Assembly: GCA_903895845.1 (NCBI GenBank)
Contig: CAITVK010000055.1
Location: 1-64,000 of the forward strand
DNA length: 64,000 bases
Reading direction: 5' to 3'
Origin: an uncultured Chitinophagaceae bacterium
GTDB lineage: Bacteria > Bacteroidota > Bacteroidia > Chitinophagales > Chitinophagaceae
The position numbers and the translations under genes are program-made. Every line of letters begins with the position of its first letter. The stretch's first letter is position 1. The notes under the pieces were generated by a model. That model saw only the letters and a program-made list of their open reading frames with translations. It was not told the DNA's origin and ran no database searches. Below are positions 5,717 through 56,550 of the stretch, in pieces.

Positions 5717-5926
5717 GCATTTCCTCACGTGGGTGAGACTCCGCCGCACCTGCGTCAGACGTTCACCCACGTGAATCTTTTGTCCATTTGCTTGAGTCAC
5801 CCCCATTTATACAAAAGGCAGACTTCGACTCAATTGAGTGAGGCTTTAACTCACGTGAGTCAGAGCTTCATTCAATTGAGTGAGAGGTTGCCGCAAGTGC
5901 GGGAACGTCAGCCTCAAGTGAGGAAA
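5717..5926. repeat. Array A: ten consecutive 21-bp degenerate units with covarying dyads
   Basis: Units laid out at 5717, 5738, 5759 ... 5906; 8 of 10 contain inverted arms such as ACTCAATTGAGT, ACTCACGTGAGT, CCGCAAGTGCGG, CCTCAAGTGAGG, CGCACCTGCG. Confidence 0.85.
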
Positions 5927-6622
5927 TGACCAATAATCAATCAATTGGGTTGTATTTGATTGAATAAAAGTTGGGATAAGTATATTTCTCTCATTCTGAC
6001 CTCAGCCCAACCCTTCTCCAATGGAGAGAAGTCAAGTGCTCACAGTCAGTGTCTAATTGTGAGTTAACTTTTTAGACTCTTTTTATGATTACTCATTCTA
6101 TAATTAGCAACTCAAATTGTATAATTACGGATAGCAACCTTTCTTACATTTCAAGTGAAGTAATATTAACAGAAACATGCATAAAAAACCAGATGTAAAG
6201 GTGGCGATGGCTGTTATAAACTACAGCCAGTCTTTTTTGTTTTAGTTATTCTTATAGTTCCTTGTTGATTGGTTAGTTCATCAATCTATTAGTTTTTCGG
6301 GACGATAAAGTGAACTGTTAGTATTAAAAATGAGTGTCCATACTTTTTTAATTTCATTTTGTTGTAGTGGTAATACATTTGATTGATGTACGTTTGATGT
6401 AGTAGTGAACTATTTGAACCAATTTAATTTTTATACCGATGTAGTATTGTTGTGTGGGGGTTGTTGTGTGGGTAATTTATAACCTGCTACTTTTACATCT
6501 CGAAATGTCAGGTACTACAAATTACCGAAAAACACTAACGATTATTTGCCACTTAGTAGTTTTAAGTAAAAGTTGGTACTAGAAATTTTTATTATTAATT
6601 TTTAAACTTTAAAACAAAAAAG

Positions 6623-8461
6623 ATGAAAAAAAATTACATTCTTCTTGCGATTCTTACCTTCTTTATATGCAAGGTACAAGCACAGCCAGGTACGCCTGCT
6701 CCCAAACCAACAGCCAATGCTTCTAATGTAGTATCACTGTGGGGAAATACCTACACCAATGTACCTGGAACCAATTGGTATCCAAATTGGGGGCAAGCAA
6801 CTCAAGTAGCTTATTCTAGTGTTGGTGGCGACACAACATTGGGTTACACAGCCCTTAACTATGAAGGGGTTGCTTTTGCTAATCCAATTGATTTATCTAA
6901 TATGGATTCTTTGCATTTGGATGTGTGGTCTCCAAATACTTCCTCATTAGATGTGCGCTTGATAAATTCTACCGCGGTGCAAAACACCGGTAACCCCATC
7001 CAACCAAATGTTACTTTAACATTAAATAACAGTGGATGGAACGTTGTGAGCATTCCTATTTCTAAATTCACAGGGTTAAAACTAAACGTGTTAGATCAAA
7101 TGTCTTTCACGGCGCTTACACCTAGTTCTGGTGGAACTATTTATTTAGAGCACATTTATTTTGTATCCCACGTAAATCTACCAACTATCACAGGCTTTTC
7201 TATTCCCTCAAACCTATTGTTGGGTGCAGCACCATTTACCCTAACCGATCCAGCTAGTAATAGTACAGGTGCATTTACCTACACCAGTAGCGATGTAACT
7301 GTTGCAACTATCAGTGGAAAAGTAGTAACAATTGTTGGTGCAGGTTCTACTGTAATCACAGCAAATCAAGCAGCTGCCGGAAGTTTCTCTAAGGGATCCG
7401 CCTCTGCAACCTTAGTTGTGTCTTATCCTCCGCCAACAACTGCTGCAACAGCCCCAACTCAATCTGCAACTAATGTAATTTCTCTATGGGGTAATAATTA
7501 TGCTAATGTAGATGGTATTAACTGGTATCCAAATTGGGGACAAGCAACGCAACTTGGATTATCAAATATTGGTGGTGATACTACATTGGAATATTCAAAC
7601 CTAAACTATGAAGGGGTTCAAACAACAACTCCTCTGAATGTTGGAAAGGCTAGTTACTTTCACCTTGATGTATGGACACCAAATGCAACTGCGGTGGTAG
7701 TAAATTTAATTAATTCTGCTTTAGTAACAGGTGGTGCAGCGGTTCAGGTTGCTGACACAATCTCACTTACAACCAGTGGATGGAACGCCATTGATATTCC
7801 AGTTACTGCTTTCAAAGGTGTAGACCTTACAAAGGTTGATCAGGTGATGTTTGTAGGCGCGACTCCAGCAACAAGTAGTGTTATCTACTTACAAAACATT
7901 TACTTCTGGGCTAGTGTGCCATTGGCAGTATCATTGGCAGACTTTAAAGCTTCAAAGATTGGCAATACAGCATCATTGACTTGGAAAACTGTAAGCGAAA
8001 CAAATAACAAAGGATTCAATGTTCAACGTAGCAGCAATGGTAAAAACTGGGCTACTTTGAAATATGTTGCAGGTGCAGGAACAGGTTCCAGCTATTCTTT
8101 TGTAGATAATAGCCCAGCAAGTGGTGTTAGCTATTACCGTTTAGGTTTAGTTGACGCAAGTGGAAAGGTTACTTACAGCTCTACGTTGTCAGTTGATTTT
8201 TCTAAAGCAACTATAGGAATTTCTTTCTATCCTAACCCTGTAAAGAGTGTAATGAATGTAAATATCCCAGCTATCCAAAGCAATACTGCAAGTTTGAGCT
8301 TGGTTGGATTGAATGGCAGAACTATCAAGACTGTTCAGTTAGGAACTCAGAGTTCCAACAGCAATGTGGCGGTAAATGTTGCAGGCTTGGCAAAGGGTAT
8401 TTATGTATTGACATTAAAAGATGGAGCTACAGTAAAAACAGCCAAGGTTGTTGTAGAATAA
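6623..8461 (+). CDS. Secreted protein with duplicated beta-sandwich-like domain, Ig-like (Big_2-like) segment and type IX secretion C-terminal sorting domain
   Basis: Signal peptide; NVVSLWGNTYTNVPGTNWYPNWGQATQ repeated as NVISLWGNNYANVDGINWYPNWGQATQ; C-term YPNPVKSVMNV...GIYVLTLKDGATVKTAKVVVE. Confidence 0.8.
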   Translation: MKKNYILLAILTFFICKVQAQPGTPAPKPTANASNVVSLWGNTYTNVPGTNWYPNWGQATQVAYSSVGGDTTLGYTALNYEGVAFANPIDLSNMDSLHLDVWSPNTSSLDVRLINSTAVQNTGNPIQPNVTLTLNNSGWNVVSIPISKFTGLKLNVLDQMSFTALTPSSGGTIYLEHIYFVSHVNLPTITGFSIPSNLLLGAAPFTLTDPASNSTGAFTYTSSDVTVATISGKVVTIVGAGSTVITANQAAAGSFSKGSASATLVVSYPPPTTAATAPTQSATNVISLWGNNYANVDGINWYPNWGQATQLGLSNIGGDTTLEYSNLNYEGVQTTTPLNVGKASYFHLDVWTPNATAVVVNLINSALVTGGAAVQVADTISLTTSGWNAIDIPVTAFKGVDLTKVDQVMFVGATPATSSVIYLQNIYFWASVPLAVSLADFKASKIGNTASLTWKTVSETNNKGFNVQRSSNGKNWATLKYVAGAGTGSSYSFVDNSPASGVSYYRLGLVDASGKVTYSSTLSVDFSKATIGISFYPNPVKSVMNVNIPAIQSNTASLSLVGLNGRTIKTVQLGTQSSNSNVAVNVAGLAKGIYVLTLKDGATVKTAKVVVE

Positions 8462-8745
8462 AAGAAGTTGCATCAAAATAGTTATTATTCAGGAGGTTGT
8501 CTGCAAGGCAGCCTCCTTTCCTTCCGGTTCAAATAATTTAAATAAGTTCTATTTAGTAATTATAAGACGAAAGCGACAAACACTATGAAAGCGTTGTGAT
8601 GCTTATGATGTACTAAAAAGTAGGATTAATAGTTCAAAAACGATTCTTTAGAAGTAGTATTGATGTAGGAGTCAATCTAATTACAAGTTCACGCAAAGGT
8701 ACTTTTGTCCTTCAGAATTTCTTCACGTTTTAAAACGATTGCATT

Positions 8746-11700
8746 ATGAAATTAAAAGTCAGATTGTTATGTATCGGTATTTTTTTGAGTGGATTACTTT
8801 TACAAGTCGCCGCCCAAACAAATATTGTTGTAACGGGAAAAGTAAGAAACAAAACAACGGGTCAACTTCTGTTTGGAGTTACTGTTAAAAGTGATAAGTC
8901 TAAAAAGTCTACACAGACAGATTTGAATGGTAGTTTTTCTATCGCAACTCCTGTTGGTTCTACATTAGTCTTTTCTTATGTAGGAATGACTACTTTTAAA
9001 TATGAAGTAACTAAAGCAGGTGATGTTGATATAACAATGGTTGAAGATATTAAGGCAGGTGACGAAGTGGTAGTTATTGGTTATGGCACACAAAAAAAGA
9101 GTGTTGTAACAGGTGCTATCTCAAGTGTAAAAGCTGCTGATTTGGAAAACCAAGTTACCCCGCGTATTGAAGAAGCTTTACAGGGTAGAACTTCTGGTGT
9201 AACCATTGCAGCATCTTCTGGTAGCCCTGGTGCTGCATCTACAATTTATGTAAGAGGTGTTACTAGCATTAATAATAGCGACCCATTGTATGTTGTGGAT
9301 GGTGTTCCAATAACAGGAGGAATTGATTATTTAAACCCAAGCGATATACAAAGTATTGAATTGTTAAAGGATGGAGCTTCTGCTGCCATCTATGGTACTA
9401 AAGCTGCTCCAGGTGTAATTTTAGTAACAACAAAAAAAGGTAGAGCGGGTGATGCTCAAATTAATTATTCCGGTTACTTTGGTTCGCAAGCTCCTGCTCA
9501 TAAGTTAAGTTTACTGAATGCCACTCAATATGCTACCCTTCGAAATGAGTCTTCTTTAGCTGCTGGTGGTGGTCTTGTATTCTCAAACCCTAAAAGTTTG
9601 GGTGCAGGAACCGATTGGCAGAGCTTAGTTTTTAATAATAATGCCAAGATTCAGAACCATCAATTTAGTGTAAGCGGCGGTAATGAAAAGGCTACATATT
9701 ATGGCTCGATGGGTTATTTTGAGCAGCAGGGTATTGTTGCTACTTCTATATCAGACTACAAAAGATTTACGGCCTCTTTTAACTCTAAAGAGAAATTGAA
9801 TAATTGGGTAACCTTCGGAAATGACATATCTTATGCCCACATTAAGAGTCAAGGGAGTTTAAATACCAACAGTGAGTATGGGGGGCCACTGAGTTCTGCT
9901 ATCAATCTAGACCCTATCACAAGAGCAGTTGTCACGGATGCTGCAACTTTAGCAACTAGTCCTTACAATATCGATTCCCTTCCGTTAATTAAGGATGCAA
10001 ACGGCCATCCTTATGGCATTTCACAATATGTTGGTCAAGAAATGACAAATCCGCTTGCCTACATACAAACAGTGCAGGGTAACTATGGTTGGTCTGATAA
10101 TTTTGTAGGTAATGTTTACCTAGAGATTGAACCAATCAAGGGTTTAAAAATAAGAAGTAACATGGGGGCTAAAATGGGCTTCTTTGGTTCTGAAAGTTTT
10201 GAACCTGTATATTACTTGAGTCCTACAGTAAATAACTTAGCAGAGAATTCTTTCTATCGTGACAACACAAAGAACCTGAACTGGAACTGGGATAATACTA
10301 TATCTTATTCTAAAAGTATTGGGTTACACAACTTTACTTTGTTAGGTGGCACAGGTGCACAACAAGCAACAGGCTCCGATGCTAATGCAACTTATTTCGG
10401 CTTACCAGTAACTACATTCCAGCAAGCTTCTATGAACTTTAGTGTTCCAACAGCTAACAGAATTGGCGGTGGATATGAATATCAGCCGTATACCCTTAGT
10501 TCTTTTTTTGGAAGAGTTACTTATGATTATAATGGAAGATATTTATTAACAGCAATAGTAAGAAGAGATGGTTCGAGCCATTTTGGTGAAGATAAAAAGT
10601 ATGGAACATTCCCATCAGTTTCTTTAGGTTGGGTACCAACCAAAGAAAATTTCTGGAGTAAGAATGATGTGGTTAACTTTCTTAAGGTTAGGGCTTCTTA
10701 TGGTGTAAATGGTAATGATAATATTGGGCCTTTTGCTTATGAGTCAACAGTTAGTGGTGGTGGTGTAAGAAATTACACTATTGGTACGGCACCTGGTCAA
10801 CTTGTAGGTTATTCTCCTAATGCGCCTGAAAATCAAGACTTGCATTGGGAACAAACCTCTCAAGCAGATTTTGGTATTGACGCGGTAGTGTTTAAAAACT
10901 TCAATGTAATTTTTGATGTTTACGACAAGAAAACTACAGGTATGTTGCTAAATCTAAACCTACCTGGCTATTTTGGAAATACGGGACAACCAATTGGCAA
11001 CATTGCTAGTCTGGAGAATAAGGGGATAGAGTTGGAAGTTGGGTACACTAAGAAACTAGGTGAAGTAAACTTTAGTTTAAAAGGAAATCTTTCCTATATA
11101 AAGAATGAGATTACCAATATTGGTACAAATCCTTACCTTGTTGGGGCAGGTTTTCAAGCCAGCAATTATGAGTTAAGCAGGACGGCAGTGGGTCATCCTT
11201 TGGGGGCTTTTTACGGATTCAAAACGCTTGGCATATTCCAAACGCAACAGGAAATAAATAACTATGTAGGTGCAAATGGTGAGAAGTTGCAACCCAATGC
11301 TAAACCAGGTGACTTTAAATATGCACATTTAAGTAACGACAGTGTAATTGGCAGCAGCGATAGGACTTATATTGGTGATCCTACACCACACTGGTCTTTT
11401 GGCTTTACGGCTACAGCTAATTGGAGAGGATTCGATATCTTATTATTTGCACAAGGAGTTACAGGCAATCAAATATTTCAAGGATTGCGGAGGTTAGATA
11501 TTTCTGGTTCAAACTATGATATTAAGGCATTGAGTCGTTGGATTGGTGCTGGAACATCTAATGATTATCCTAGGTTAGTGGATGGTGACCCTAACGGTAA
11601 TTTTACAAATCCTTCTAATTTTCATTTGGAAAGTGGTGCCTACCTAAGAATCAAGACGTTGCAACTGGGTTACACCGTGCCAAAGTCTTTTTCTCAAAAG

Positions 11701-11868
11701 ATTGGATTACAAAAACCTGCTCGTATCTACATAAGCAGCAACAACTTGTTGACGCTTACTAAGTATGATGGTTTTGATCCAGAAATTGGTGGCGGTAGCT
11801 ATGGTATAGATAGGGGTATTTATCCTCAGGCACGTTCTTTCTTGGCAGGAATTAACATTACTCTTTAA
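8746..11868 (+). CDS. SusC/RagA-family TonB-linked outer-membrane protein
   Basis: CarboxypepD_reg-like N-term, plug with DEVVVIGYGTQKKSVVTGAISSV, DPLYVVDGVPITGG, GAPGVILVTTKKG; beta-barrel length. Confidence 0.95.
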   Translation: MKLKVRLLCIGIFLSGLLLQVAAQTNIVVTGKVRNKTTGQLLFGVTVKSDKSKKSTQTDLNGSFSIATPVGSTLVFSYVGMTTFKYEVTKAGDVDITMVEDIKAGDEVVVIGYGTQKKSVVTGAISSVKAADLENQVTPRIEEALQGRTSGVTIAASSGSPGAASTIYVRGVTSINNSDPLYVVDGVPITGGIDYLNPSDIQSIELLKDGASAAIYGTKAAPGVILVTTKKGRAGDAQINYSGYFGSQAPAHKLSLLNATQYATLRNESSLAAGGGLVFSNPKSLGAGTDWQSLVFNNNAKIQNHQFSVSGGNEKATYYGSMGYFEQQGIVATSISDYKRFTASFNSKEKLNNWVTFGNDISYAHIKSQGSLNTNSEYGGPLSSAINLDPITRAVVTDAATLATSPYNIDSLPLIKDANGHPYGISQYVGQEMTNPLAYIQTVQGNYGWSDNFVGNVYLEIEPIKGLKIRSNMGAKMGFFGSESFEPVYYLSPTVNNLAENSFYRDNTKNLNWNWDNTISYSKSIGLHNFTLLGGTGAQQATGSDANATYFGLPVTTFQQASMNFSVPTANRIGGGYEYQPYTLSSFFGRVTYDYNGRYLLTAIVRRDGSSHFGEDKKYGTFPSVSLGWVPTKENFWSKNDVVNFLKVRASYGVNGNDNIGPFAYESTVSGGGVRNYTIGTAPGQLVGYSPNAPENQDLHWEQTSQADFGIDAVVFKNFNVIFDVYDKKTTGMLLNLNLPGYFGNTGQPIGNIASLENKGIELEVGYTKKLGEVNFSLKGNLSYIKNEITNIGTNPYLVGAGFQASNYELSRTAVGHPLGAFYGFKTLGIFQTQQEINNYVGANGEKLQPNAKPGDFKYAHLSNDSVIGSSDRTYIGDPTPHWSFGFTATANWRGFDILLFAQGVTGNQIFQGLRRLDISGSNYDIKALSRWIGAGTSNDYPRLVDGDPNGNFTNPSNFHLESGAYLRIKTLQLGYTVPKSFSQKIGLQKPARIYISSNNLLTLTKYDGFDPEIGGGSYGIDRGIYPQARSFLAGINITL

Positions 11869-11887
11869 TCTTAAAACACTCAATAAA

Positions 11888-13399
11888 ATGAAAAAGAAGA
11901 TAATCATATACTTTCTTATGGCTGTTATAATACAGTCCTTGGTCTCTTGTAAAAAGAGTTTTCTAGAGACAACACCTGCGGGTGAATTCTTACAGTCTAA
12001 TTATTATCAAACCTCAGATCAGGTTTTTACTGGTGTCATAGCTGCTTATAACCCCTTAGGCTGGCAGTACGTAAATTCATACACCGACGAATATGTAGAT
12101 AAGCAGATTGTAGCCAATACACTTGGGGATGAATGTTATGCAGGTGGCGGGGGTGCTACCGATGTTCCTGGTTTACAAGCTTGTAATACCTATTCCTTAA
12201 GTAGCGCACTTGGTCCACAGGGTGTTCTATTCGATAGAAACTATACTGGTATATACAGGGCAAACCTCATGTTGCAAGTGTTGAATGGCTCTTTAATACC
12301 GGGACTTACAACTGCGAACAAGAACAGATATATTGCAGAAATGAAGTGGTTAAGGGCGTATTATTATTTTGATTTAGTTACTCTATTTAAAAATGTACCG
12401 TTAACTACAACGCCAATACCAATTGCAGAAGCTTTTTCTATTACTCAATCTAAACCTGCTGATGTTTATTCTCAGATAGAAAAAGATTTAAACGAAGCAA
12501 TTCCTGCTTTACCTGCAATCATTCAATCTTCCGATTATGGTAGAGTAACAAGTGGTGCCGCAATGGCTTTGCTAGGTAAAGTTATTCTTTTTCAAAACAA
12601 CACTTCGAGAATGCAAGAGGCTGCTAATTGGTTTGATAAGGTTAATAGCTCTGGAATCTATCAATTACAATCGAACTTTGCTAGCATTTTTGATCCTGCA
12701 AATAAATTTAATAGCGAATCAATATTCGAGATTACCCATTCTTTCAATGTAGGGAATGACTGGAGTAATCTTCAAGGAGTAACCGGTAACATTTATGTAC
12801 AAATGGTAGGACCAAGAACTTACACAGGTTCTACCTACTATTCTGCAGGTTGGAGCTTTAATCCAATCATCCCAGCTTTTCAACAGTTTATGAAAAACGA
12901 TCCGAGGTATCCGTTCACTATTTTAAATATTGATAGCTTGACTAAAGCGAATGGAACAAGCTATTTACCAGGTTACCAAAATACGGGTTTTTTTATAGCT
13001 AAGTACGTACCATTGGCACAATATGCTTCCACTACTGGTAATCAGGCATTAAACTTTACCAACGATTATATCGAGATACGTTTGGCTGATACCTATTTAA
13101 TGGAAGCTGAAGCTATTGTACGTGGCGGTGGAAATGTAGCAACAGCGCAAAATTACCTGGATCAAGTTCGTGCAAGAGTAGGTTTACCTTCTATTCCAGC
13201 AACATTAGCTAACATATATGCAGAAAGAGAATTAGAATTAGCAACCGAAGGACATAGATGGTTCGATCTAGTTCGTACTGGACAGGCTCCATCTGTATTA
13301 GCATTTAAAGGATTTAAGGCTGGTATAAATGAAATTTTGCCCATTCCTTTAGACGAACTTAATAATACTAAGTTGGTACAGAATCCTGGTTATAATTAA
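11888..13399 (+). CDS. SusD/RagB-family nutrient-binding lipoprotein
   Basis: Lipobox LVSCKKSFLETTPAG; EMKWLRAYYYFDLV; LADTYLMEAEAI; ERELELATEGHRWFDLVRTG. Confidence 0.95.
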   Translation: MKKKIIIYFLMAVIIQSLVSCKKSFLETTPAGEFLQSNYYQTSDQVFTGVIAAYNPLGWQYVNSYTDEYVDKQIVANTLGDECYAGGGGATDVPGLQACNTYSLSSALGPQGVLFDRNYTGIYRANLMLQVLNGSLIPGLTTANKNRYIAEMKWLRAYYYFDLVTLFKNVPLTTTPIPIAEAFSITQSKPADVYSQIEKDLNEAIPALPAIIQSSDYGRVTSGAAMALLGKVILFQNNTSRMQEAANWFDKVNSSGIYQLQSNFASIFDPANKFNSESIFEITHSFNVGNDWSNLQGVTGNIYVQMVGPRTYTGSTYYSAGWSFNPIIPAFQQFMKNDPRYPFTILNIDSLTKANGTSYLPGYQNTGFFIAKYVPLAQYASTTGNQALNFTNDYIEIRLADTYLMEAEAIVRGGGNVATAQNYLDQVRARVGLPSIPATLANIYAERELELATEGHRWFDLVRTGQAPSVLAFKGFKAGINEILPIPLDELNNTKLVQNPGYN

Positions 13400-13439
13400 T
13401 TTCAAACTATTTAATTTTTTATTCTTAATACTTTTTTAT

Positions 13440-14378: not shown

Positions 14379-14413
14379 CAGGAATTAATTATTTCAAAAT
14401 AAAAAGGGTTAAG

Positions 14414-15619: not shown

Positions 15620-15811
15620 AATACTAGAATGTGAAAATTGTTCTGTTTAGAAAACAGGAGTAGAATGTTTATCACAGATACAAACTTGTAGAAACTTATT
15701 AATGAAAAATTTTTAGTTATTAATCTAGGAAAAGGGTTTGCTTTTTGTTGGCTGTGGTTGTTAACGTGTAAATACTTAAAGACTAGTTTGTGTTGAATTA
15801 GAGCTCGCTGT

Positions 15812-17020: not shown

Positions 17021-17089
17021 TTAAATGATTCAGTGAAACATTGTAGTTGTCGGTTTAATAAAAATAAGAGGAATTAAAAATAATGAGAT

Positions 17090-24751: not shown

Positions 24752-24830
24752 TAATTACCTCATTCACTTTTCAAGAGAATACCCTAAACCCCTAAGGTCT
24801 GTGAAGCAATTGTTTCATGGGCTTTTTTTA

Positions 24831-25003
24831 TTAGATAGTAGTTATTAGATGATAGATAGTAGATGATAGATATTAGATAGCAGTTATTAGATAGTAGGTG
24901 GTAATAAGAGAAGCCCCTGAAGTATCAACTCCAAGGGCTTTCCTTTTTAAGAACTATTAATTATTATCTACTATCTACTATCTATCATCTATTATCTACG
25001 ATA
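24831..25003. repeat. Inverted low-complexity TAGATAGTAGATGATAGAT arms flanking a terminator hairpin
   Basis: 24831-24898 (ttagatagtagttattagatgatagatagtagatgatagata...) and 24963-25003 (tattatctactatctactatctatcatctattatctac) are reverse complementary in style. Confidence 0.75.
24908..24943. terminator. Stem-loop AGAAGCCCcTGaagtatcaactCCAAGGGCTTTCCTTTTT between convergent genes
   Basis: Inverted repeat AAGCCC...GGGCTT followed by T-rich tract; between MFS stop and hypothetical stop. Confidence 0.7.
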
Positions 25004-25658
25004 CTATTCCATCAAACTTAGTTGCCACTGTGCCCAATACAGCACGGGTGTTGAAGTAACGGGCGAAGGCAATAAAAGCCATCCCAAAATGGGTGTCCGA
25101 AAAAACTACATGGCCACTATTTGTTTTGTACATGATGGTCTGCGTGCAATCGGCTTCCTTGGGAGGCGTTGTGCCAATAGCATAAAAACCAAAGGTTACC
25201 GTAATCCCATCCTGGCCGGCAGGTTCGCCGCCAACGGGAGTACCAAAAACCATGGTGCCACCCAAATTTCCCGACCTCTCATATTGCACCGAGGGCGCAA
25301 CAATGGCAACAGGCGACAGCGTGTGCGAGTCGCTATCGTTGTGCACCCCACATGCAGTACGGTTTACATCGGTCATCAAAGTATTTGTTTTCATCGCCAT
25401 TCCCATTTTCCTTATTCTCGCTTCGTAGGGCACACGGGCATCTGAGGTAGCCTGCACATCAAGCGGGGTGCGGCTAGCTTTCACCGACGAGATGGCGTAG
25501 TCGGTATTAAAAATAGTTTGCTCGCCCACCAATGCCGTGGCATCTGTCAAATTCAATCCCCAACCTGTTTTGTTTGCGGCTACTTCCACGCAAAAATTGT
25601 CTCCAAAAATTTTAAAATCTGTAATTCCCGGAGGAACCCAATCATCATTATGTGACAT
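24996..25658 (-). CDS. Hypothetical protein (MSHNDDWVPPG...)
   Basis: Start placed at MSHNDDW, 54 codons inside ORF 24996..25820; the upstream 7-aa periodic part is repeat array B. Confidence 0.6.
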   Translation of the reverse strand: MSHNDDWVPPGITDFKIFGDNFCVEVAANKTGWGLNLTDATALVGEQTIFNTDYAISSVKASRTPLDVQATSDARVPYEARIRKMGMAMKTNTLMTDVNRTACGVHNDSDSHTLSPVAIVAPSVQYERSGNLGGTMVFGTPVGGEPAGQDGITVTFGFYAIGTTPPKEADCTQTIMYKTNSGHVVFSDTHFGMAFIAFARYFNTRAVLGTVATKFDGIVS

Positions 25659-25700
25659 AATTTGTAATTTTAAATGAAAAGAAATGTTGTAATTAATTTT

Positions 25701-25881
25701 TAATTGTCTACCCGCAAGGTTCAACTGTCTACCCAGAAGGTTTAATTGTCTACCCAGAGTGATTAACTGTCCACCCGGAAGGTTTAACTGTCTACCCGCA
25801 AGCTTTGATTGTCTACCCAAAAAGTCTAATTGTCTACCCAGAGTGATTAACTGTCCACCCAGAACAGCTAATTGTAACTCA
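25701..25881. repeat. Array B: nine units of 21 bp (aaYtgtctacccNgaaggttt-like)
   Basis: TGTC/TGTA anchor at 25705/6, 25726, 25747, 25768, 25789, 25810, 25831, 25852, 25873, exactly 21 bp apart. Confidence 0.9.
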
Positions 25882-26082
25882 TAAAAGCTTTAGAAAGTTG
25901 CCTAAAGCAATAGTATATGATGATACAAAACAGCCCCCATGATATTTTAAGAAGCTGGTGAAAGTGATACTGTCATTGGGTTTCGCAATCGGTAGGGGAG
26001 CGCTTTTTAGTAACGGTTCCTCGCTATCGAGTCACAGAGGTAGCGATAAGTTTGGATAGTGGGGGATTTAATTATTGAGATT

Positions 26083-36422: not shown

Positions 36423-36869
36423 TTAAACCTTTCCAGTATGACCGAACCCTCCAACGCCTCTTGTAGTTTCGTTAATGTTTGAAACCGGTAGCCATTCAAT
36501 CTGTTCTATAACCTGAATAACCATTTGTGCAATTCGGTCGCCATCGTTGATAGTTTGAATTTCGTTCGACAGATTAATCAAAATCACCTTTATCTCTCCT
36601 CTATAATCTGCATCAATTGTACCTGGGGTGTTCAAACAAGTAATGCCTTGTTTGATAGCTAAGCCACTTCTTGGTCTTATCTGCGCTTCGTAGCCGTTGG
36701 GTAATTCAATGAAAATACCGGTAGGAACCAGCTTTCTTTCCATCGGTTCCATAAAGATTGACTCATTAATAAAAGCCCTCAAATCCATACCAGAAGAGCC
36801 TTCTGTGGCATAGGAAGGTGACGGATGATGCGAATTATTGATGATAGGAACAATGAGTTTATCTGCCAT
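36423..36869 (-). CDS. dut: dUTP diphosphatase
   Basis: [57 protein letters not shown]. Confidence 0.97.
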
Positions 36870-36918
36870 AAGTCTATTTTTTATGAATGATAGAGCAAAG
36901 AATATTTAGTTTAATGCT

Positions 36919-37141
36919 CCATTTTAATCTAGATTAAAATGGTTTTCCTTGTGATTAAAATGGAATTACTCATGATTAAAACGATTTTCCTTGTGATTAA
37001 AAGCATTTTAATCTACATTATTTTGGTTTTAATCATGATTGAAATGACTTTAATGATGAGTAAAATGATTTTCCTTATCAGTAAAACGATAATAATCTAC
37101 ATTAAAATGGCACTTCTTTACGGTGAAACCGTTTTCTTTGA
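36919..37141. repeat. Array C: 24-bp perfect palindrome followed by ten 21-bp units
   Basis: CCATTTTAATCTAGATTAAAATGG at 36919-36942; units begin at 36932, 36953, 36974, 36995, 37016, 37037, 37058, 37079, 37100, 37121 (all exactly 21 bp). Confidence 0.9.
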
Positions 37142-42183: not shown

Positions 42184-43143
42184 TTAAAGTAATTGCACCC
42201 GGTATGTTGCGGTATCGCCCGATAAACTTACTACGTTCAAAAAGCGGTGCAAGGCATAGTTGGTGACGCCAAAGGCACTGATGGTAATTGTTTGCTTGAT
42301 GTTGGCAGTAATCAATATCGGTGTACTGTCCACACCTGCAACACCGGACGATAAATACAGGTTGAACGTACCAGAACCTACTATTTTCACAGCTATCTGG
42401 TCGGCAGCCAGGAAGGTGTGTGCCAATAAATTTTCTTGCGCCAGAGACAATATAGCACTTGTGAAGATGGTCTGCGGATTTTCGCGCAGCGTTACCAGAT
42501 CAAATACTAGCGGGCACATCGTTTCGATAGTATCATAAAAGTTATCCATCATATTACCGAGGTTGCGGTATTGCATAACCATTGCAGCAATGCGCGCCGT
42601 CTCCAAAGTGTCGCTATCGTCCGAGGTGGTTGTTATTGCGCTACTCTGCGTTTCCCGCAACAACAGTAGCGAAGCGTAGTTGCTGTCAGCAGCAGTTTTT
42701 ATCGATGCCAACGCCACTTCGCTGCCAATATTCGTTCCCAATACGCCAAATGCCGCAATCTTTGTGTCGATGGTTCCTGTATTAAAAGGTGATAAACCAC
42801 CTGGAAATATCGCTTTGTAGCGAGGTGAGTCTTTTGGATGAAGGCCCAATATCACTGGCATCCATACATTCGTTAGTAGCTTCTTTGAAATTGCAAATTC
42901 CTGTGTTACCGATAGCCTGTCCCCCTGTTGCAAGCTACCCGAACTGGTGTGTTGGTTGTAGGCAGCCACCAAAGCGAGGTGTAATGGATGATAACGGGTG
43001 TAGAGCGGCAATAATAATGGGTAAGTTGTACTTAGTGTTCGTAGGGCATTGTCGTGAAAAGTGCTCAGTATGACGGCTCTTTTTATGCTCCCATAGGTGC
43101 TTAGTAAAAACTGGTTATCAATGTACTTCCAATTGTAAATCAT
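42184..43143 (-). CDS. Hypothetical protein, no recognisable family
   Basis: Single long ORF starting ~40 bp from repeat array D; no recognised motif. Confidence 0.55.
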   Translation of the reverse strand: MIYNWKYIDNQFLLSTYGSIKRAVILSTFHDNALRTLSTTYPLLLPLYTRYHPLHLALVAAYNQHTSSGSLQQGDRLSVTQEFAISKKLLTNVWMPVILGLHPKDSPRYKAIFPGGLSPFNTGTIDTKIAAFGVLGTNIGSEVALASIKTAADSNYASLLLLRETQSSAITTTSDDSDTLETARIAAMVMQYRNLGNMMDNFYDTIETMCPLVFDLVTLRENPQTIFTSAILSLAQENLLAHTFLAADQIAVKIVGSGTFNLYLSSGVAGVDSTPILITANIKQTITISAFGVTNYALHRFLNVVSLSGDTATYRVQLL

Positions 43144-43186: not shown

Positions 43187-43448
43187 AAAAGTGTTTGCTG
43201 TATTACCGATGTTCTTAACACAGCAAATGAGTGTGTTTGCCCTGTGTCCGATCTCGACCACACAGCAAATGAGTGTGGTTGCCCTGTGTCTAATCTCGTC
43301 TACACAGCAAATGAGTGTGTTTGCCCTGTGTCTAATCTCGCCCACACAGCAAATGAGTGTGTTTGCCCTGTGTCCAATCTCGTCTACACAGCAAATTAGA
43401 GTATTTGCCTTGTGTCCAATCTCGCCTACGCAGCAAATCATTTTCTTT
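43187..43448. repeat. Array D: 42-bp (2x21) tandem repeat with internal inverted ACACAG(GG)CAAA / TTTGCCCTGTGT arms
   Basis: ACACAGC/ACGCAGC anchors at 43218, 43260, 43302, 43344, 43386, 43428, exactly 42 bp apart. Confidence 0.9.
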
Positions 43449-44458: not shown

Positions 44459-44869
44459 ACTTGTAGTTTAGTTTTCCTCGATAGCTGAATCACAATATTA
44501 CGTAATTATCTAGGTCTTTAACAAAGCAATTCTTTTATATTAAATTGTATTGCTTTCAAGTATCAATAACTTTAATTAGTAAGCCAGTCATTGCATAGCA
44601 GCCTGTCGCCTAGCACCTTTCGAAAGGTTGGCAATAAACCATTCAATTCATAAAAGCAAAAAATCTGTATCCATCTGGATAAATGCTTTGTAACAATCCA
44701 TCAGATTCTTAAACTGAACAACAAGAACCCAATCAGGAAAAGACGCGCACAATTTGCAAAGGAGTGCAATATAATGAACATTTATACCCTTTAACAAGTC
44801 ATTCGCGATGCCCATCTGCCCCGCTAACCCTTTTTCCGTTAATTTAGCCGCTTTCTAAATAGAGATACT

Positions 44870-46588: not shown

Positions 46589-46602
46589 TGGAAGAATAAT
46601 TA

Positions 46603-46635
46603 AACCTTTACAGGGTTTGAAACCCTATAAAGGTT
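46603..46635. repeat. Stem-loop AACCTTTAcAGGGTTTgAAACCCTaTAAAGGTT between M3 peptidase and glnS
   Basis: Near-perfect inverted repeat; no following T tract. Confidence 0.75.
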
Positions 46636-46657
46636 AGTGCTAATAAATAAGAAAGTA

Positions 46658-48325: not shown

Positions 48326-48421
48326 AGATATTGCCACTAAGTCGGGAAGACAGCAAGTAGCACAAAGAGAAAGCAATCCGCCTGAGATATAAATTAGTAA
48401 GCGGATTTTTAATGAAATGAG

Positions 48422-49828: not shown

Positions 49829-49875
49829 GTCAGTTTAAATTCCAGCTGGTAACACCGGATTATTAAGGCACTGTT

Positions 49876-50541
49876 TTACGGCACGTTTATGTATTTATGC
49901 AACTGCAAACTAAGTTCCCACTTAGGATTTTGTTTTATATAATCAACTATTAATGGAGTTACAGTTGCTGCTTTATCCCATTCTGGTTGAAGGTAAAGTT
50001 TGCAGGAAGCAGGCACTTGTGCTGCATAAGTCTCCGCCCATTCGAAATCGTGCTTATTAAATACCACAACCTTTAGCTCATTTGCAAAAGGGACTACTTC
50101 TGGCAGGGGAGCTTTAAATTTTTTAGGAGATAAACAGATCCAATCCCAATTTCCACTCAATGGCGAGGAACCAGATGTTTCAATATTTGTTCTGAAGCCT
50201 TTGGCTTTAAGTTCAGCAGTTAATTCATCAAGGTTATGCATTAATGGTTCTCCTCCCGTAATGACTGCAATTAAGCCGTTAACCGTTAATCGTTGATTGT
50301 TGTCCGCTGTCGGTTGACGGTCAACGGTCAACGGTAAACTTCCTAATGCATCCTCCACAATATGCTCTACAGTATATTGCGGGTGCTTGGTTGCATCCCA
50401 ACTATCTTTAACGTCGCACCAAACACAGCCTACATCACAGCCACCCAACCTGATAAAATAGGCAGCACTTCCCTGATAGTAGCCTTCACCTTGTATGGTG
50501 TAGAAACTTTCCATCACCGGAAGTGTATTTGTATTTATCAT
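49876..50541 (-). CDS. queE: 7-carboxy-7-deazaguanine synthase (radical SAM)
   Basis: ESFYTIQGEGYYQGSAAYFIRLGGCDVGCVWCDVKDSWD; VITGGEPLMHNLDELT. Confidence 0.95.
   Translation of the reverse strand: MINTNTLPVMESFYTIQGEGYYQGSAAYFIRLGGCDVGCVWCDVKDSWDATKHPQYTVEHIVEDALGSLPLTVDRQPTADNNQRLTVNGLIAVITGGEPLMHNLDELTAELKAKGFRTNIETSGSSPLSGNWDWICLSPKKFKAPLPEVVPFANELKVVVFNKHDFEWAETYAAQVPASCKLYLQPEWDKAATVTPLIVDYIKQNPKWELSLQLHKYINVP
50275..50337. repeat. GTTGACCGT-family palindromic element inside queE
   Basis: ccgttaaccgttaatcgttgattg ... cggttgacggtcaacggtcaacgg; encodes PLTVDRQPTADNNQRLTVNG. Confidence 0.8.
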
Positions 50542-50567
50542 GATTGAATTTTACTTTTTACTTACAA

Positions 50568-51857
50568 CTATGCCTCGAACTCGTAGCCAATATCCTTTCT
50601 GTAATTGATTCCCTCAAAATGAATATCCTTTAGTATAGAAATAGATTGTTCCACCGCTTCCTTAATGCTGTTTCCCTTGCTCGTTACCGTCAAAACGCGT
50701 CCCCCATTTGTTACAATAGTGTTCTCATTTTGTTTGGTGCCTGCCTGAAACAATAAAGAACTTGCAGGCAAAGGGTTTGCTAATCCAGTAATAGGGATAT
50801 TCTTTTTATAATCTCCCGGATAACCACCACTCACTGCCACCACAGTTGCAAAATAGCCATCGGCAAAGTTAATATTGGCATCTTCCAGCGTTCCATTGTC
50901 CATTGCGGCAAAAAGACTGAGCAAATCTGTCTCTAATCTAGGCATTACAACTTCTGTTTCGGGATCTCCCATGCGACAATTGTATTCTATTACCTCAGGG
51001 TTACCTTCTACATTCATCAATCCAAAAAAGATAAAGCCATTATACACCAATCCCTCTTTTGCAAGCCCTTTCACAGTTGGGGCAATGATTCTTTCTTCTA
51101 CTTTTTGCATAAATGCATCATCCATAAATGGTACCGGTGTCACACAACCCATTCCGCCTGTATTTAAACCCGTATCTCCTTCACCAATCCTTTTATAGTC
51201 TTTAGCATGACCAATCACTTGATAATCCACGCCATTAGTCAATACAAAAACACTTACTTCTATTCCTTTCAGAAAGGCTTCAATCACTACTTTACTACTT
51301 GCCTTACCAAATTGCTGGTTGATAATCATCTCTTCAAAAACCTGCAAGGCATCTTCGTGGGTCTCACTGATTACAACTCCCTTTCCTGCTGCCAATCCGT
51401 CGGCTTTTAGTACAATCGGCAGGTTATGTTGTTTGATATAGGCTTTTCCTTCCTCAAAATTCTCTTTTGTAAACTCAGCATACGCAGCGGTAGGTATATT
51501 GTTGCGGTTCATAAACTTCTTTGAGAAAGCCTTACTTCCTTCCAACTGAGCCGCTTCTTTAGATGGGCCAACCACAAACCCTTTCCAACCGTTTTCTGTC
51601 TTAGCACGCTCCATGAAATCGTAGATTCCATTCACCAATGGTTCTTCGGGGCCAACTACCAATACATCTATCTTATTCGTCAGACAAAAAGCCTTTATCC
51701 CTTCAAAATCGTGCGTGCCGATGTTTACTAATGTGCCTAAGGACGCCATTCCGGGGTTTCCGGGGGCTATAAATAACTGATTGCAGTGATGGCTTTGGGC
51801 TATCTTCCATGCGAGTGCGTGTTCTCGTCCACCGCTTCCCAATATTAATGTATTCAT
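50568..51857 (-). CDS. purD: Phosphoribosylamine-glycine ligase
   Basis: LILGSGGREHALAWKIAQS; FIAPGNPGMASLG; VGPEEPLVNG; LKADGLAAGKGVVI; NTGGMGCVTPVPF; EYNCRMGDPETEVVMPRL. Confidence 0.97.
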   Translation of the reverse strand: MNTLILGSGGREHALAWKIAQSHHCNQLFIAPGNPGMASLGTLVNIGTHDFEGIKAFCLTNKIDVLVVGPEEPLVNGIYDFMERAKTENGWKGFVVGPSKEAAQLEGSKAFSKKFMNRNNIPTAAYAEFTKENFEEGKAYIKQHNLPIVLKADGLAAGKGVVISETHEDALQVFEEMIINQQFGKASSKVVIEAFLKGIEVSVFVLTNGVDYQVIGHAKDYKRIGEGDTGLNTGGMGCVTPVPFMDDAFMQKVEERIIAPTVKGLAKEGLVYNGFIFFGLMNVEGNPEVIEYNCRMGDPETEVVMPRLETDLLSLFAAMDNGTLEDANINFADGYFATVVAVSGGYPGDYKKNIPITGLANPLPASSLLFQAGTKQNENTIVTNGGRVLTVTSKGNSIKEAVEQSISILKDIHFEGINYRKDIGYEFEA

Positions 51858-52062
51858 TCCTAAATGCCGTTTTTATTGTGGCTGCGAATGTACGTGAAAC
51901 CAAAGGAAATGACTAGTGGATGCTAGTGAATACCCTTGTCTTTTGTAACTATAAAACAATTTGGGTTGTAATTTTTATCTTATCTTAATGTTCAAATAAA
52001 TAAAACAATACTTATTTATCATTATTTTGCAACTCCCCATACTGCTTAAATACAACTAAATA

Positions 52063-52437
52063 ATGAAAAAATTACTGGTACTCATACTCTGCTTGTCATT
52101 TAAAATTGCCTTTTTACAGGCGCAAACGCCAGAGCCTACGTTTATAAACAGCGATAAAGGATTGAAAAAAGAGGAAATCCTCAGGCTTGAAATGAAAGAC
52201 GACCTCAAGATATACGACAAGCGTTTCGATTCTGTGGTCTTGATTCAAAAAGAGTTTCAAGCGAAGATTAAAGTGGTTCATTTCGATAAAAAATTAACCG
52301 AAGACATCCGACAAAAGCGCGAAAAAGACTTAAATGATTTGAAAAGAAGGAGATTGCGTGCAGCTGGTCTTGATGATGCTGAGATAAAACGGGTGGAGGA
52401 CTATTTTCTACACAGAGAAAGACAACCGCAACGATAA
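52063..52437 (+). CDS. Small secreted hypothetical protein
   Basis: Signal peptide LLVLILCLSFKIAFLQAQ; charged mature part. Confidence 0.55.
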   Translation: MKKLLVLILCLSFKIAFLQAQTPEPTFINSDKGLKKEEILRLEMKDDLKIYDKRFDSVVLIQKEFQAKIKVVHFDKKLTEDIRQKREKDLNDLKRRRLRAAGLDDAEIKRVEDYFLHRERQPQR

Positions 52438-52538
52438 ATTGCCCAATTGGTTGCCACTAGTTACGCTAAATATTACTAGCTAAGCAAATTTGTATTTATT
52501 AATTTTATTAGTGGCTAACAATTAAACTAGGCAGATAA

Positions 52539-53624
52539 TTAGTTGCCCCTACTCAATATCTTGGTAAACCTTTTTACGTCAGCGAGTGGGTTTATCAGTG
52601 CATTATTCAGTATATTTTCTGATAATTGATGGGCAAAGTAGGGTGCCAACGAACATCCTTTTGTACCCATACCATTCAAGATGCCCATATTGGGATGTAC
52701 GGGATGAAATCCTACAAAAGGTCTCCGCTCCATGTTGGCAGGACGTTCTGCCGCAATATGATCGACTATCTTATACGGTAATTTAATCCAGAACTTAAGC
52801 AATTCTTCCACTTTTTGCCTGAAAGCAGTGCTTGGTAACAGGTCTTTAAAGTCCCATTCGTAAGTGGACCCTACCCACCACAAATTTTCTTTCCATGGCA
52901 CCAGGCTTAGACCTTGCTTAAAGATGTTGGTACGTGGAAGTCCGTCAATTTCTACGATAACTGCCTCACCTTTATTCTTTGCATAGGGCAATAGATTGAA
53001 AAACGGACTGTCGAAACCCTTCGTTCCGTCGCAGAAAATGACTTTTTGGGCAGATACGTTTTTATAAGTCGTAAGGGGTAAGTCGTAAGGAGTAAGTGAG
53101 GAATTGGGAGTCGTTAGTTGATTCAAATCAAACGTTTCCTCCCACAAACTACCGTTTTCTATTAGTTTTTCGCGCCATCCATTCAATAGCAAGTGTACAT
53201 CTATCAGGTAACACGGGTTTATTTCGCCGGCACCGAAGTTGAAATTAAAATATTCTTTTAAGCCCTGTTCATTTGCTGGATAGCGCAGATATTTTTCCTC
53301 TACGGGCTGCCTTTCTGCAAAAGCGAGTTTCATTTGTGGGGTAGGATGGAAATCTATGATGTTCTTCTGACTAATCAGTTCTATCCCAATATCATTGCCC
53401 AGATTGGTGTATGCCTCCAAAGCAAAGGGAAGTAAAATATCTATCATCCAGGTACTCACAATCCGCCTTCCGGTTACAGGATTGATGACGCCGCTTGCAA
53501 CTTTGGAGGCAGTATAGGGTTGTACATCGTTTATAACCAATACCTTCTTGCCTGCCTTTAATAAGTTCCAACTTAAAAAGCTTCCAGATAAACCCTGACC
53601 AACTATTATATAGTCTACTTCCAT
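52539..53624 (-). CDS. FAD-dependent oxidoreductase (DAO-like)
   Basis: DYIIVGQGLSGSFLSWNLLKAGKKVLVI; SGVINPVTGRR; NMGILNGMGTKGCSLAPYFA. Confidence 0.85.
   Translation of the reverse strand: MEVDYIIVGQGLSGSFLSWNLLKAGKKVLVINDVQPYTASKVASGVINPVTGRRIVSTWMIDILLPFALEAYTNLGNDIGIELISQKNIIDFHPTPQMKLAFAERQPVEEKYLRYPANEQGLKEYFNFNFGAGEINPCYLIDVHLLLNGWREKLIENGSLWEETFDLNQLTTPNSSLTPYDLPLTTYKNVSAQKVIFCDGTKGFDSPFFNLLPYAKNKGEAVIVEIDGLPRTNIFKQGLSLVPWKENLWWVGSTYEWDFKDLLPSTAFRQKVEELLKFWIKLPYKIVDHIAAERPANMERRPFVGFHPVHPNMGILNGMGTKGCSLAPYFAHQLSENILNNALINPLADVKRFTKILSRGN
53060..53121. repeat. TAAGTCGTAAG-family repeat inside the FAD oxidoreductase gene
   Basis: tttataagtcgtaaggggtaagtcgtaaggagtaagtgaggaattgggagtcgttag; encodes LTTPNSSLTPYDLPLTTYK. 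Confidence 0.7.
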
Positions 53625-53719
53625 AGTGTGTGCAAAGAAACGCTTCGTGTGTAATAAATAGGATGATTTATGTCAAACTAACTGCTTCAAACTCAAAGTC
53701 CGCTCAAAATTCTTCAATT

Positions 53720-53789
53720 AGATTTCTCCTATCGTCGAAATGACGGGTCGATTGATTGTTCGGACGTCATTTCGAGGCACGAGAAATCT
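53720..53789. repeat. AGATTTCTC...CGAAATGACG inverted-repeat element (copy 1)
   Basis: agatttctcctatcgtcgaaatgacg ... cgtcatttcgaggcacgagaaatct, short loop. Confidence 0.85.
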
Positions 53790-53861
53790 ATTTTACCCTG
53801 TTAGCATTGTTCTTTTTATTTACTGCTTGGCAGTTATATTTGCCGGAAATTGTAGACAAAT

Positions 53862-55133
53862 ATGTTACAGGTAAGTGTGCTGAAAAGTAACCCTGATTGG
53901 GTGAAAGAACGATTGAGTGTTAAGAATTTTAAACAAATAGACCTCGTAGACGCTATCGTGGCATTGGACGACGAGCGTAAATCTATCCAGGTCGGTTACG
54001 ATAATGCGCAGGCGGGCATCAATTCTTTGTCTAAAGAAATAGGCAAATCGATGTCTTCTGGATTGATTGACCAAGCAAATGCGTTTAAAAAGCAAGTAGC
54101 TGAATTTAAAGAACAAGCGGCTGCCTGCTCCGAAAAACTAGCGCTAGTAGAGAAGGAGTTATATGAAGCACTGGTTCAGCTACCCAATTTGCCTGCAAAA
54201 GAAGTTCCGTTGGGCAAAACCCCCGAAGAGAATGTGGTGGTGAGAGAAGGGGGTACTATTCCCGCTTTGTATGATGGCGCGGTGGAGCATTGGCACCTGC
54301 TTGACAAGTATAAATTGGTGAATTTTGAGTTAGGCAACAAGATTACGGGTAGCGGATTCCCGGTTTATACTGGAAAGGGTGCAAAGCTACAGCGTAGTTT
54401 GGTGCAATACTTTCTGGACTTCAATACCGATGCAGGTTATCTGGAATACCTGCCTCCTTTTATGGTCAACGAACAAAGTGCTTTTGCTACCGGGCAACTT
54501 CCCGATAAAGAAGGGCAGATGTACCACGTGACCGAAGACAAATTATACCTCATTCCTACCGCGGAAGTGCCTGTGACCAACGTGTATAGGGATACTATTT
54601 TGAAGGAAGACGAATTGCCCGTAAAAATGACCGCTTATAGTCCATGTTTCCGTAGGGAAGCAGGTAGTTATGGTAAAGATGTTCGCGGATTAAACAGGGT
54701 TCATCAATTTGAGAAGGTAGAGATCATTCAAATTGTGCATCCCGATAAAAGTTATGAAGTATTGGATGAAATGGTTGCCCATGTGGAGCGTCTACTAAAT
54801 AGTTTGCAGTTGCCGTATCGCATTTTGCGTTTATGTGGTGGCGATATGGGTTTTGCGAGTGCCATTACCTACGACTTTGAAGTGTATAGCGCTGCACAAA
54901 AACGCTGGTTGGAGGTGAGTAGCGTGAGTAACTTCGAAAATTTTCAGACAAACCGTATGAAGTGTCGCTTTAAAGATGGCAATAGCAAAACGCAGCTGGC
55001 ACATAGCCTCAATGGAAGCTCGTTGGCATTGCCCCGTATTGTAGCTTGCCTGTTAGAAAATAACCAAACCGCAGAAGGGGTAGTACTTCCACAAGTATTA
55101 CATAGATATTTTGGAGGAGAAGTGATTAATTAG
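53862..55133 (+). CDS. serS: Seryl-tRNA synthetase
   Basis: LTAYSPCFRREAGSYGKDVRGLNRVHQFEKVEI-type motif; EVSSVSNFENFQTNRMKCRFK; LAHSLNGSSLALPRIVACLLENNQ. Confidence 0.97.
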   Translation: MLQVSVLKSNPDWVKERLSVKNFKQIDLVDAIVALDDERKSIQVGYDNAQAGINSLSKEIGKSMSSGLIDQANAFKKQVAEFKEQAAACSEKLALVEKELYEALVQLPNLPAKEVPLGKTPEENVVVREGGTIPALYDGAVEHWHLLDKYKLVNFELGNKITGSGFPVYTGKGAKLQRSLVQYFLDFNTDAGYLEYLPPFMVNEQSAFATGQLPDKEGQMYHVTEDKLYLIPTAEVPVTNVYRDTILKEDELPVKMTAYSPCFRREAGSYGKDVRGLNRVHQFEKVEIIQIVHPDKSYEVLDEMVAHVERLLNSLQLPYRILRLCGGDMGFASAITYDFEVYSAAQKRWLEVSSVSNFENFQTNRMKCRFKDGNSKTQLAHSLNGSSLALPRIVACLLENNQTAEGVVLPQVLHRYFGGEVIN

Positions 55134-55200
55134 GCATAAGAAATAAGTCGTAAGCCGTAAGTCATAAGTCTTAAGGCAAAAGAAAAGAGTTGGAAGCCGT

Positions 55201-55346
55201 AAGTCATAAGTCGTAAGGCATAAGAGATAGGACATAAGTCAAAAGAAATAAAACGTAGTTAAAAAAATAAGCATTACTCATTGATAGTAATGCTTATTTT
55301 TTTTCTCCCTACTTCTTATGTCCTGATACTTACGACTTATGACTTA
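55201..55346. repeat. Direct-repeat element copy 1 containing a terminator hairpin within outer inverted arms
   Basis: Matches 55901-56046 at offset exactly 700 with about 3 mismatches counted by eye. Confidence 0.9.
55264..55304. terminator. Hairpin AATAAGCATTACTcattgatAGTAATGCTTATTTTTTTT downstream of serS
   Basis: Inverted repeat followed by T run. Confidence 0.8.
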
Positions 55347-55357
55347 CAACTTAAGAC

Positions 55358-55807
55358 TCATTCCTTACAACGTACAACTTTCTTAGCTTTTTTCATACTC
55401 AATTGTGCACCTTCTGGGTGTTCTGGGTTAACAATCAGTTCTTGTCGTCGAGGGTGTATCATCACATCCATTTCTTCCATTGGAATTGCGCCTAAGAGTG
55501 GCTCAAGGTTGCCAGGTAGCACCATTGCGCTACAAATGGCGGTTCTGTTTGCAAACTTCACCAATATTGGACCCACAACATCATACTCATTTATCCTTCC
55601 ATCAGCCAAAATTGCCTTTCGCTTTTCAATAAATGTTAGTCCCAATTGCTCTTGTAGCGATTCGTTGATGGCCATTTCATAAGCACCACTGTCCACCATC
55701 ATTTCAATCTTAACTTCCCTAATTTCTTCTTCACCAATCAGGTTTCGTTTTGCCATTCCCATGTCCACTGCATTAATCAACGTTATTTCTGCATACACTA
55801 ATCCCAT
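55358..55807 (-). CDS. Clan AA (retropepsin-like) aspartic protease-like protein
   Basis: EMMVDSGAYEMAINESLQEQLGL (D-S-G motif); PLLGAIPMEEMDVMIHPRRQELIVNPEHP. Confidence 0.75.
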   Translation of the reverse strand: MGLVYAEITLINAVDMGMAKRNLIGEEEIREVKIEMMVDSGAYEMAINESLQEQLGLTFIEKRKAILADGRINEYDVVGPILVKFANRTAICSAMVLPGNLEPLLGAIPMEEMDVMIHPRRQELIVNPEHPEGAQLSMKKAKKVVRCKE

Positions 55808-55900
55808 AATTTCTATTTGTGTAAATATAGCACAAGTATTTTGGGAGAGGGGCTATTAGTTTTAGGAAAAGGAAACGAGTTGTAAGTGGTAAGTCATAAG

Positions 55901-56046
55901 TGGTAAGGCATAAGAGATAGGACATAAGTCAAAAGAAATAAAACGTAGTTAAAGAAATAAGCATTACTCATTGATAGTAATGCTTATTTTTTTTGTCCCT
56001 ACTTCTTATGTCCTGATACTTACGACTTATGACTTAATCTTTATAG
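55901..56046. repeat. Direct-repeat element copy 2
   Basis: Near-identical to 55201-55346, same orientation. Confidence 0.9.
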
Positions 56047-56061
56047 GGATTGTTGTTTTGT

Positions 56062-56172
56062 GACGTCATTTCGAGGCACGAGAAATCTCATTTTGATTAA
56101 ATACTATTGGTGCATACCAAAAACCGCTTGCAGTATTTCGGTTAGATTTCTCCTATCGTCGAAATGACGGGT
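56062..56172. repeat. AGATTTCTC/CGAAATGACG element copy 2 with arms in inside-out order
   Basis: gacgtcatttcgaggcacgagaaatct ... agatttctcctatcgtcgaaatgacgg. Confidence 0.8.
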
Positions 56173-56300
56173 AGATGGTGCAGATTGCGGTAAATTCTTA
56201 AAATAAGCGATTGATAATTATTCATTATCCATTGTCAATTATCAATTCCTTCCCCTTATTGCGCAATTTCAATGTTTCATTATCCAATAACTATTGCTTG

Positions 56301-56550
56301 TTGCCCATATCTTCTGTAAGTTGCCCAAAAACTTTGTAAGTTGTCCAAAAAAACTGCATGTTGCCCAATATCTATAACAAGTTGTCCGATATCGCCTCGC
56401 TTTTGGGCAAATAGCAGCAGAAAATGCCCAACTTGTCATAGATATTGGCTAGAATACAGTAGAAATGGGCAACTTGTACTAGATATTGGACAACTTGCAA
56501 TAGATATCGGACAACTTGTTATAGATATTGGGCAACATGCAGTTTTTTGG
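56301..56550. repeat. Array E: 20/21-bp units in two opposed blocks, with a 46-bp perfect inverted repeat
   Basis: TTGCCC/TTGTCC at 56301, 56321, 56341, 56361, 56382; opposed GGGCAA/GGACAA at 56467, 56488, 56509, 56530; 56348-56393 is the reverse complement of 56503-56548. Confidence 0.9.

Follow-up and report, generated by a model that had tools for sequence, protein, structure and literature searches.

BOX elements of Streptococcus pneumoniae are modular intergenic hairpins that lie near genes and carry tandem middle modules. They resemble the arrays described here as intergenic hairpin modules near genes, and differ from them in having one consensus and a 45-bp boxB. Closer in taxonomy, the BrickBuilt MITE/minisatellite of Porphyromonas gingivalis, also a member of the Bacteroidota, occupies many intergenic loci with imperfect tandem repeats of 23 nt whose number varies between strains (PMC4596501). 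However, BrickBuilt has one consensus, leader and tail segments and terminal inverted repeats (PMC4596501), whereas the present arrays have neither a consensus nor shared ends, keep a period of 21 bp and fold back. The tandem repeats of Borgs have a unit sequence unique to each locus, an independent origin and a fast turnover between close relatives (PMC9879509). Locus-specific units, intergenic copies and turnover between close relatives are common to both, but Borg units are perfect, A-rich, of many lengths and half of them in ORFs (PMC9879509), in contrast to arrays that are imperfect (about 20% of positions differ from the consensus of the array), of one helical period (21n), upstream of promoters and dyad-symmetric. 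Heptanucleotide repeats such as TAACTGA, found in Beggiatoaceae, cyanobacteria and Bacteroidetes, are likewise intergenic tandem repeats that keep to one unit length and often lie close to start codons (PMC4679880). Their units are, however, of 7 bp, mostly of one sequence and directly upstream of start codons (PMC4679880), whereas the arrays here have 21-bp units with no 7-bp subperiod and are placed upstream of the promoter.

Repeat families and regulatory elements are usually recognised by sequence. These arrays share position, period, length and symmetry instead: by extrapolation, hundreds of loci per genome have the same layout and not the same letters, and arrays at homologous sites of sister species are unrelated to one another. 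Searches of the open-access literature turned up no description of repeats that share an architecture but not a sequence. If helical phase is the selected trait, natural DNA would have a function in its spacing that is hidden from motif and homology searches. This raises testable questions about the protein that would read the arrays and about how they arise and get swapped.

Five phased islands in the window

A first-pass annotation of the window (the whole stretch of DNA analysed, 64,000 nucleotides) had described five intergenic islands phased at 21 bp, each upstream of a gene start. All five were recovered in place, with TRF periods and, for B to E, local autocorrelation in agreement, and they lie 43-190 bp from the starts at 5528 (ispG), 25658, 36869 (dut), 43143 and 56626. 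Array A (5717..5934) is upstream of ispG (GcpE; 3477..5528, minus strand, PF04551). TRF detects a 21-bp array at 5811-5934, the left part being weaker, and the units contain 12-bp palindromes such as ACTCACGTGAGT and ACTCAATTGAGT (unit dyad p=0.003). Array B (25686..25890), with nine units of 21 bp (TTTAACTGTCTACCCAGAAGG) and without palindromes, precedes a hypothetical gene at 24996-25658 on the minus strand. Array C (36907..37129), about ten units of 21 bp (ATCATGATTAAAATGATTTTA), forms in its entirety a single imperfect foldback upstream of dut (dUTPase; 36423..36869, minus strand, Pfam PF00692). Array D (43187..43448) has about 5.3 units of 42 bp (ACACAGCAAATGAGTGTGTTTGCCCTGTGTCCAATCTCGTCC) and is upstream of the start at 43143. 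Array E (56301..56550) does have the 20/21-bp units that had been described, but they form two inverted arms and not a single direct array, and the arms make up a long, nearly perfect hairpin (-102 kcal/mol when folded as RNA). The gap from array E to the start at 56626 contains TACATTTG (56595..56602, plus strand), which matches the promoter box TAnnTTTG; the enrichment of this box, given below, was established at the level of the class.

In B, C and D local autocorrelation appears only at multiples of 21 bp, and such multiples are also present in E. Self-similarity at 21, 42, 63 and 84 bp marks islands B to E, and the sole other place in the window is a heptamer array at 55.1 kb. The TRF periods are 21/84 for B and for C, 42 for D and 20/21/41 for E. 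The absence of a common consensus holds among these five islands, but it is not absolute, as some arrays in the genome share sequence. Likewise, the dyads that had been noted inside units are frequent but not universal: in 32% of the arrays the consensus unit is more palindromic than shuffles of its columns (unit dyad p<0.05), and B is not palindromic. Open frames that cross the arrays carry no weight for a coding role, since 21 is a multiple of 3 and such frames are to be expected.

Period, anatomy and position of the arrays in the genome

The source genome, that of an uncultured bacterium (4.01 Mb in 138 contigs, 99% complete), was sampled in stretches that total 1.32 Mb, of which 1.30 Mb were readable, one third of the genome. 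Lags from 5 to 129 were counted in non-coding DNA as places where an 80-bp window and the sequence shifted by that lag agreed at 60% or more of their positions. In the 1.30 Mb there were 61 places at lag 21, 63 at 42, 49 at 63, 46 at 84, 35 at 105, 33 at 126 and 35 at lag 7, and every remaining lag had 0-7. An unbiased search of the same DNA with TRF, which has no period preference, gave 94 arrays in non-coding DNA, each 100 bp or longer, with periods of 21 (56 arrays), 42 (13), 41 (eight), 20 (three) or others (14), i.e. 80 of the 94 had a period of 20, 21, 41 or 42. The identical procedure was applied to 79 further loci around ispG, 1.43 Mb in total, which are of Chitinophagaceae type and mostly from records named Chitinophagaceae or Bacteroidetes; it yielded nine arrays of mixed periods. 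The density is about 60 intergenic arrays per Mb, and about 240 are expected in the genome by extrapolation from the 73-80 in 1.3 Mb. Contigs begin inside arrays at L016:1, L018:1, L027:1 and L032:1; hence arrays probably break the assembly and are under-counted.

The mean unit computed from the TRF periods is about 20.9 bp, or about 10.46 bp per helical turn, and periods of 41 and 20 occur, whereas 43 and 22 hardly ever do. This mean fits helical phasing better than an exact quantum of 21 or 7 nt. The helical phasing at 21 bp that had been proposed is thus supported by both lag counts and TRF periods, and lags of 21 bp dominate over other periods genome-wide. As the period is special and the position of the arrays biased (see below), the observation stands. 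Slippage VNTRs or minisatellites would have a free period and no positional bias, and the 21-bp arrays do not behave in this way.

The median array measures 213 bp (177-238 bp for the middle half), and 8-12 units are typical; in those of period 42, two distinct 21-bp halves alternate. Each unit has a contiguous conserved core of about 11 bp and a variable rest (conservation clustering, combined Z=4.9). At lags of 10 and 11 identity falls short of expectation, so that a unit spans two turns instead of a single one; within the 21-bp units there is no trace of a 7-bp subperiod (identity at lag 7/14 0.26). A depletion of indels inside arrays (gap/mismatch 0.044 vs 0.094) hints at a phase constraint, but detection at a fixed lag biases toward this result. 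In 79% of the arrays foldback is above the 95th percentile found for intergenic DNA elsewhere, with its centre at the array middle, and about one fifth of them are without foldback symmetry. Array symmetry beats column permutation in 59% of cases and unit reordering in 39%, the latter implying that mirror-placed units match one another beyond their shared consensus. Higher-order periods of 42, 63 and 84 bp occur within arrays. No k-mer was enriched in 146 array flanks and edges after multiple testing, i.e. neither shared ends nor a flank motif were found there.

The claim that the islands lie upstream of gene starts extends to the class as a significant positional bias. With genes called as open frames of at least 110 codons, an array was present in 22 of the 126 divergent gene pairs, in 48 of the 656 co-directional ones and in 3 of the 130 convergent ones (Fisher p=3e-5 for divergent and 0.03 for co-directional, each against convergent). 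The -7 promoter box of Bacteroidetes is TAnnTTTG, known for Bacteroides promoters. Between array and start codon it was found 28 times in sense and 4 times in antisense orientation, inside arrays it was absent (0, where shuffles predict 8.8), and the segment that runs from the stop codon of the upstream gene to the array held it twice; array-free promoters have an equal density of the box. Since the box falls between array and start and not inside, the array lies upstream of the core promoter. The distance between array and -7 box varies from 1 to >300 bp, which implies that there is no fixed geometry relative to RNA polymerase. Downstream genes with a Pfam match are mostly unrelated housekeeping genes (e.g. 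dut, ispG and those for chorismate synthase, Mur ligase, PEP carboxykinase, MTHFR, MutL, RsmF and arabinose isomerase), several of the checked genes had no match, and no common theme was found among the genes checked.

Copying and turnover of arrays

Within the genome some arrays form small families, with identities of up to 92% over 246 bp, 86-87% over about 190 bp and further such cases. The neighbours and flanks of these near-copies are mostly unrelated, and the best score is 331 bits against a decoy maximum of 73. The closest pairs keep their unit order and others share the unit only, which suggests whole-array copying followed by homogenisation. Dispersed copies of one element are thus seen within small families and not across the class. 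A process dedicated to generating arrays, one of the possibilities raised at first, or to copying them is plausible, given that unrelated loci hold near-copies of entire arrays.

Arrays are present in nine genomes (G000, the source genome, G001-G004, G006, G007, G010 and G011) of a genus known mainly from metagenome assemblies. Small samples of G005 and G008 yielded none, nor did the other genera sampled, and as far as sampled the class is confined to one genus. At the same site, members of the genus have a homologous array, an unrelated 21-bp array or none. The dut site, flanked by the same two genes, has arrays in G000, G001, G004, G006, G007 and G002, those of G007 and G002 being called by inspection and weaker periodicity; the arrays of G004 and G006 are alike and the others unrelated, with four or five unrelated motifs in all. 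This site is arrayless in G010 and G011, where the gap measures 61 and 92 bp, respectively, vs 292 bp, and G010 has arrays elsewhere. Orthologous or paralogous sites of array B carry unrelated arrays in G001 and G010. The site of L032:15354 has a different array in G004, a short remnant in G003 and none in G010. The array at L066:2640 has a homologue in G010 with a differing higher-order structure and unit order, a collapsed remnant in G001 and a strongly diverged or unrelated array in G004. The array at L068:14819 is common to G000 and G001 and missing from G010, where a plain hairpin resembling an intrinsic terminator occupies the site (L267). Such empty sites in close relatives imply that the array is not required there.

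The site comparison covered five retained arrays and about five exchanged or empty sites, with L021 and L045 judged by gap sizes. Retained orthologous arrays were at least as conserved as their non-coding flanks at all five sites and clearly more at three, with array vs flank identities of 97.3 vs 75.0%, 93.7 vs 72.7%, 85.8 vs 78.8%, 78.6 vs 71.7% and 77.5 vs 76.5%. As retained arrays are well conserved and others swapped, slow drift does not account for the differences between genomes.

Possible roles of the arrays

Unrelated arrays share only their geometry, that is, phase, symmetry, size and place. We therefore favour, with a confidence that stops just short of even, a reading of the islands as DNA-level upstream promoter elements or boundaries that are defined by their architecture and read by a geometry-sensitive protein assembly or through hairpin extrusion. 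Such an element would comprise 8-12 units at 21 bp (41/42 if half-units alternate), about 210 bp in all, with a foldback at its middle and a place upstream of the core promoter. With one 11-bp core per two helical turns, its units would offer these cores along a single face of the DNA, arranged mirror-symmetrically. The reader may be an architectural or oligomerising DNA-binding protein of relaxed sequence specificity, or several proteins, and the element would either act on transcription from the adjacent promoter or insulate it. With a reader of relaxed specificity, phase and symmetry would be kept while letters get swapped. More broadly, we tentatively propose a regulatory or chromosome-organising element that consists in geometry alone, whose letters could be replaced wholesale, which would be read by a geometry-sensing assembly or as extruded hairpins and which may be renewed by copying.

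Several candidate factors were considered. HU/IHF shows no expansion, with 2 copies in the genome. RAYT (Y1 transposase, PF01797) has one copy in G000 and was found neither in G010 (99% complete) nor in G001, and these array-bearing genomes rule it out as a required factor. SbcD, the hairpin nuclease subunit (TIGR00619), was not found in G000 or in many of the Chitinophagaceae relatives searched, which is unusual given the plentiful foldback DNA. Loss of SbcCD is not supported as a cause, as relatives that carry no arrays lack SbcD equally, whereas G011 and G007 have both arrays and SbcD. Intrinsic curvature, calculated with wedge parameters, was positive against column permutation and gone against tandem random intergenic 21-mers (median end/contour 0.834 for units and 0.839 for the random tandems, p=0.59; p=0.049 for 42-bp units). 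Selection does not act on static curvature alone, because units bend no more than repeated random 21-mers.

Four other explanations must be taken into account. The near-copies at unrelated loci with non-homologous flanks, the clean empty sites in relatives and the foldback structure would all suit selfish elements, MITE-like or minisatellite, that copy themselves near promoters without host function and whose families amplify separately, hence the sequence differences. We regard this as unlikely, as the arrays are without shared ends or flank motif and the single RAYT copy of G000 has no counterpart in array-bearing G010. At the one site inspected for it, the insertion at L021:12158-12434, no target-site duplication was visible in the own sequence, the edges being those of BLAST alignments. 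Moreover, selfish copying fails to explain a single helical period over unrelated sequences or conservation above neighbouring DNA. It is rather improbable, too, that the arrays are a by-product of mutation without function, generated by slippage or hairpin elongation with a 21-nt step set by polymerase or nucleoid geometry. A promoter-biased position, contiguous conserved cores, conservation above flanks, 41-bp periods and the lack of a 7-bp subperiod all argue against it, although units are tandem and often palindromic, arrays are homogenised internally (42/63/84-bp periods; the unit order that differs in G010) and heptamer arrays also occur in the genome. The missing SbcD would also fit a by-product, but the distribution described above does not follow the arrays.

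Homotypic operator clusters, in which each family would be a row of sites for its own sequence-specific factor and array exchange a change of regulator, are compatible with the 11-bp conserved cores and variable spacers as predicted binding sites, with palindromic units in a third of the arrays, with motif families common to several loci and with the place upstream of the promoter. They would, however, demand dozens of factors with about ten sites per promoter each for target genes without a theme; near-identity covers whole 42-bp units and not cores alone, and operators have no need of whole-array mirror symmetry, so that we consider them quite unlikely. Finally, it is very improbable that the arrays act as structured RNA, be it a small RNA, a terminator or the 5' leader suggested in the first-pass annotation. 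Predicted RNA folding is indeed strong (mean z -3.9 vs column-permuted arrays), some array ends look like intrinsic terminators and the empty G010 site of L068:14819 has a terminator. Nevertheless, the promoter box comes after the array, on its downstream side, and arrays are rare in convergent gaps, where terminators are wanted. G-U pairs acting in RNA would give more G-T than A-C among the foldback mismatches of the sense strand, and the near-equal counts (323 vs 316) argue against action at the RNA level. An Rfam search, moreover, matched no family to the arrays above the gathering score. Its sole match, Flavo-1 RNA (RF01705; 26905-26983, plus strand, 54 bits), lies outside them; several of the genus members searched contain numerous matches to this segment, and Flavo-1 therefore looks like a multi-copy element here.

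Other repeats were noticed besides the 21-bp arrays. Heptamer (7-bp) arrays with inverted arms lie in the window at 24828-24999, 55132-55380 and 58067-58174; several heptamer arrays are in convergent gaps, at positions complementary to those of the 21-bp arrays, and they occur in other Chitinophagaceae too. Short dispersed repeats of about 70 bp, in high copy across genus members, are found in L068 at 1696-1765, 2441-2510 and 5497-5573, the last of which recurs about every 1 kb on contigs C225 and C226 of G004. Another genome of the same genus, G012 (loci L251-L255), is rich instead in repeats with periods of 7, 9 and 47 bp.
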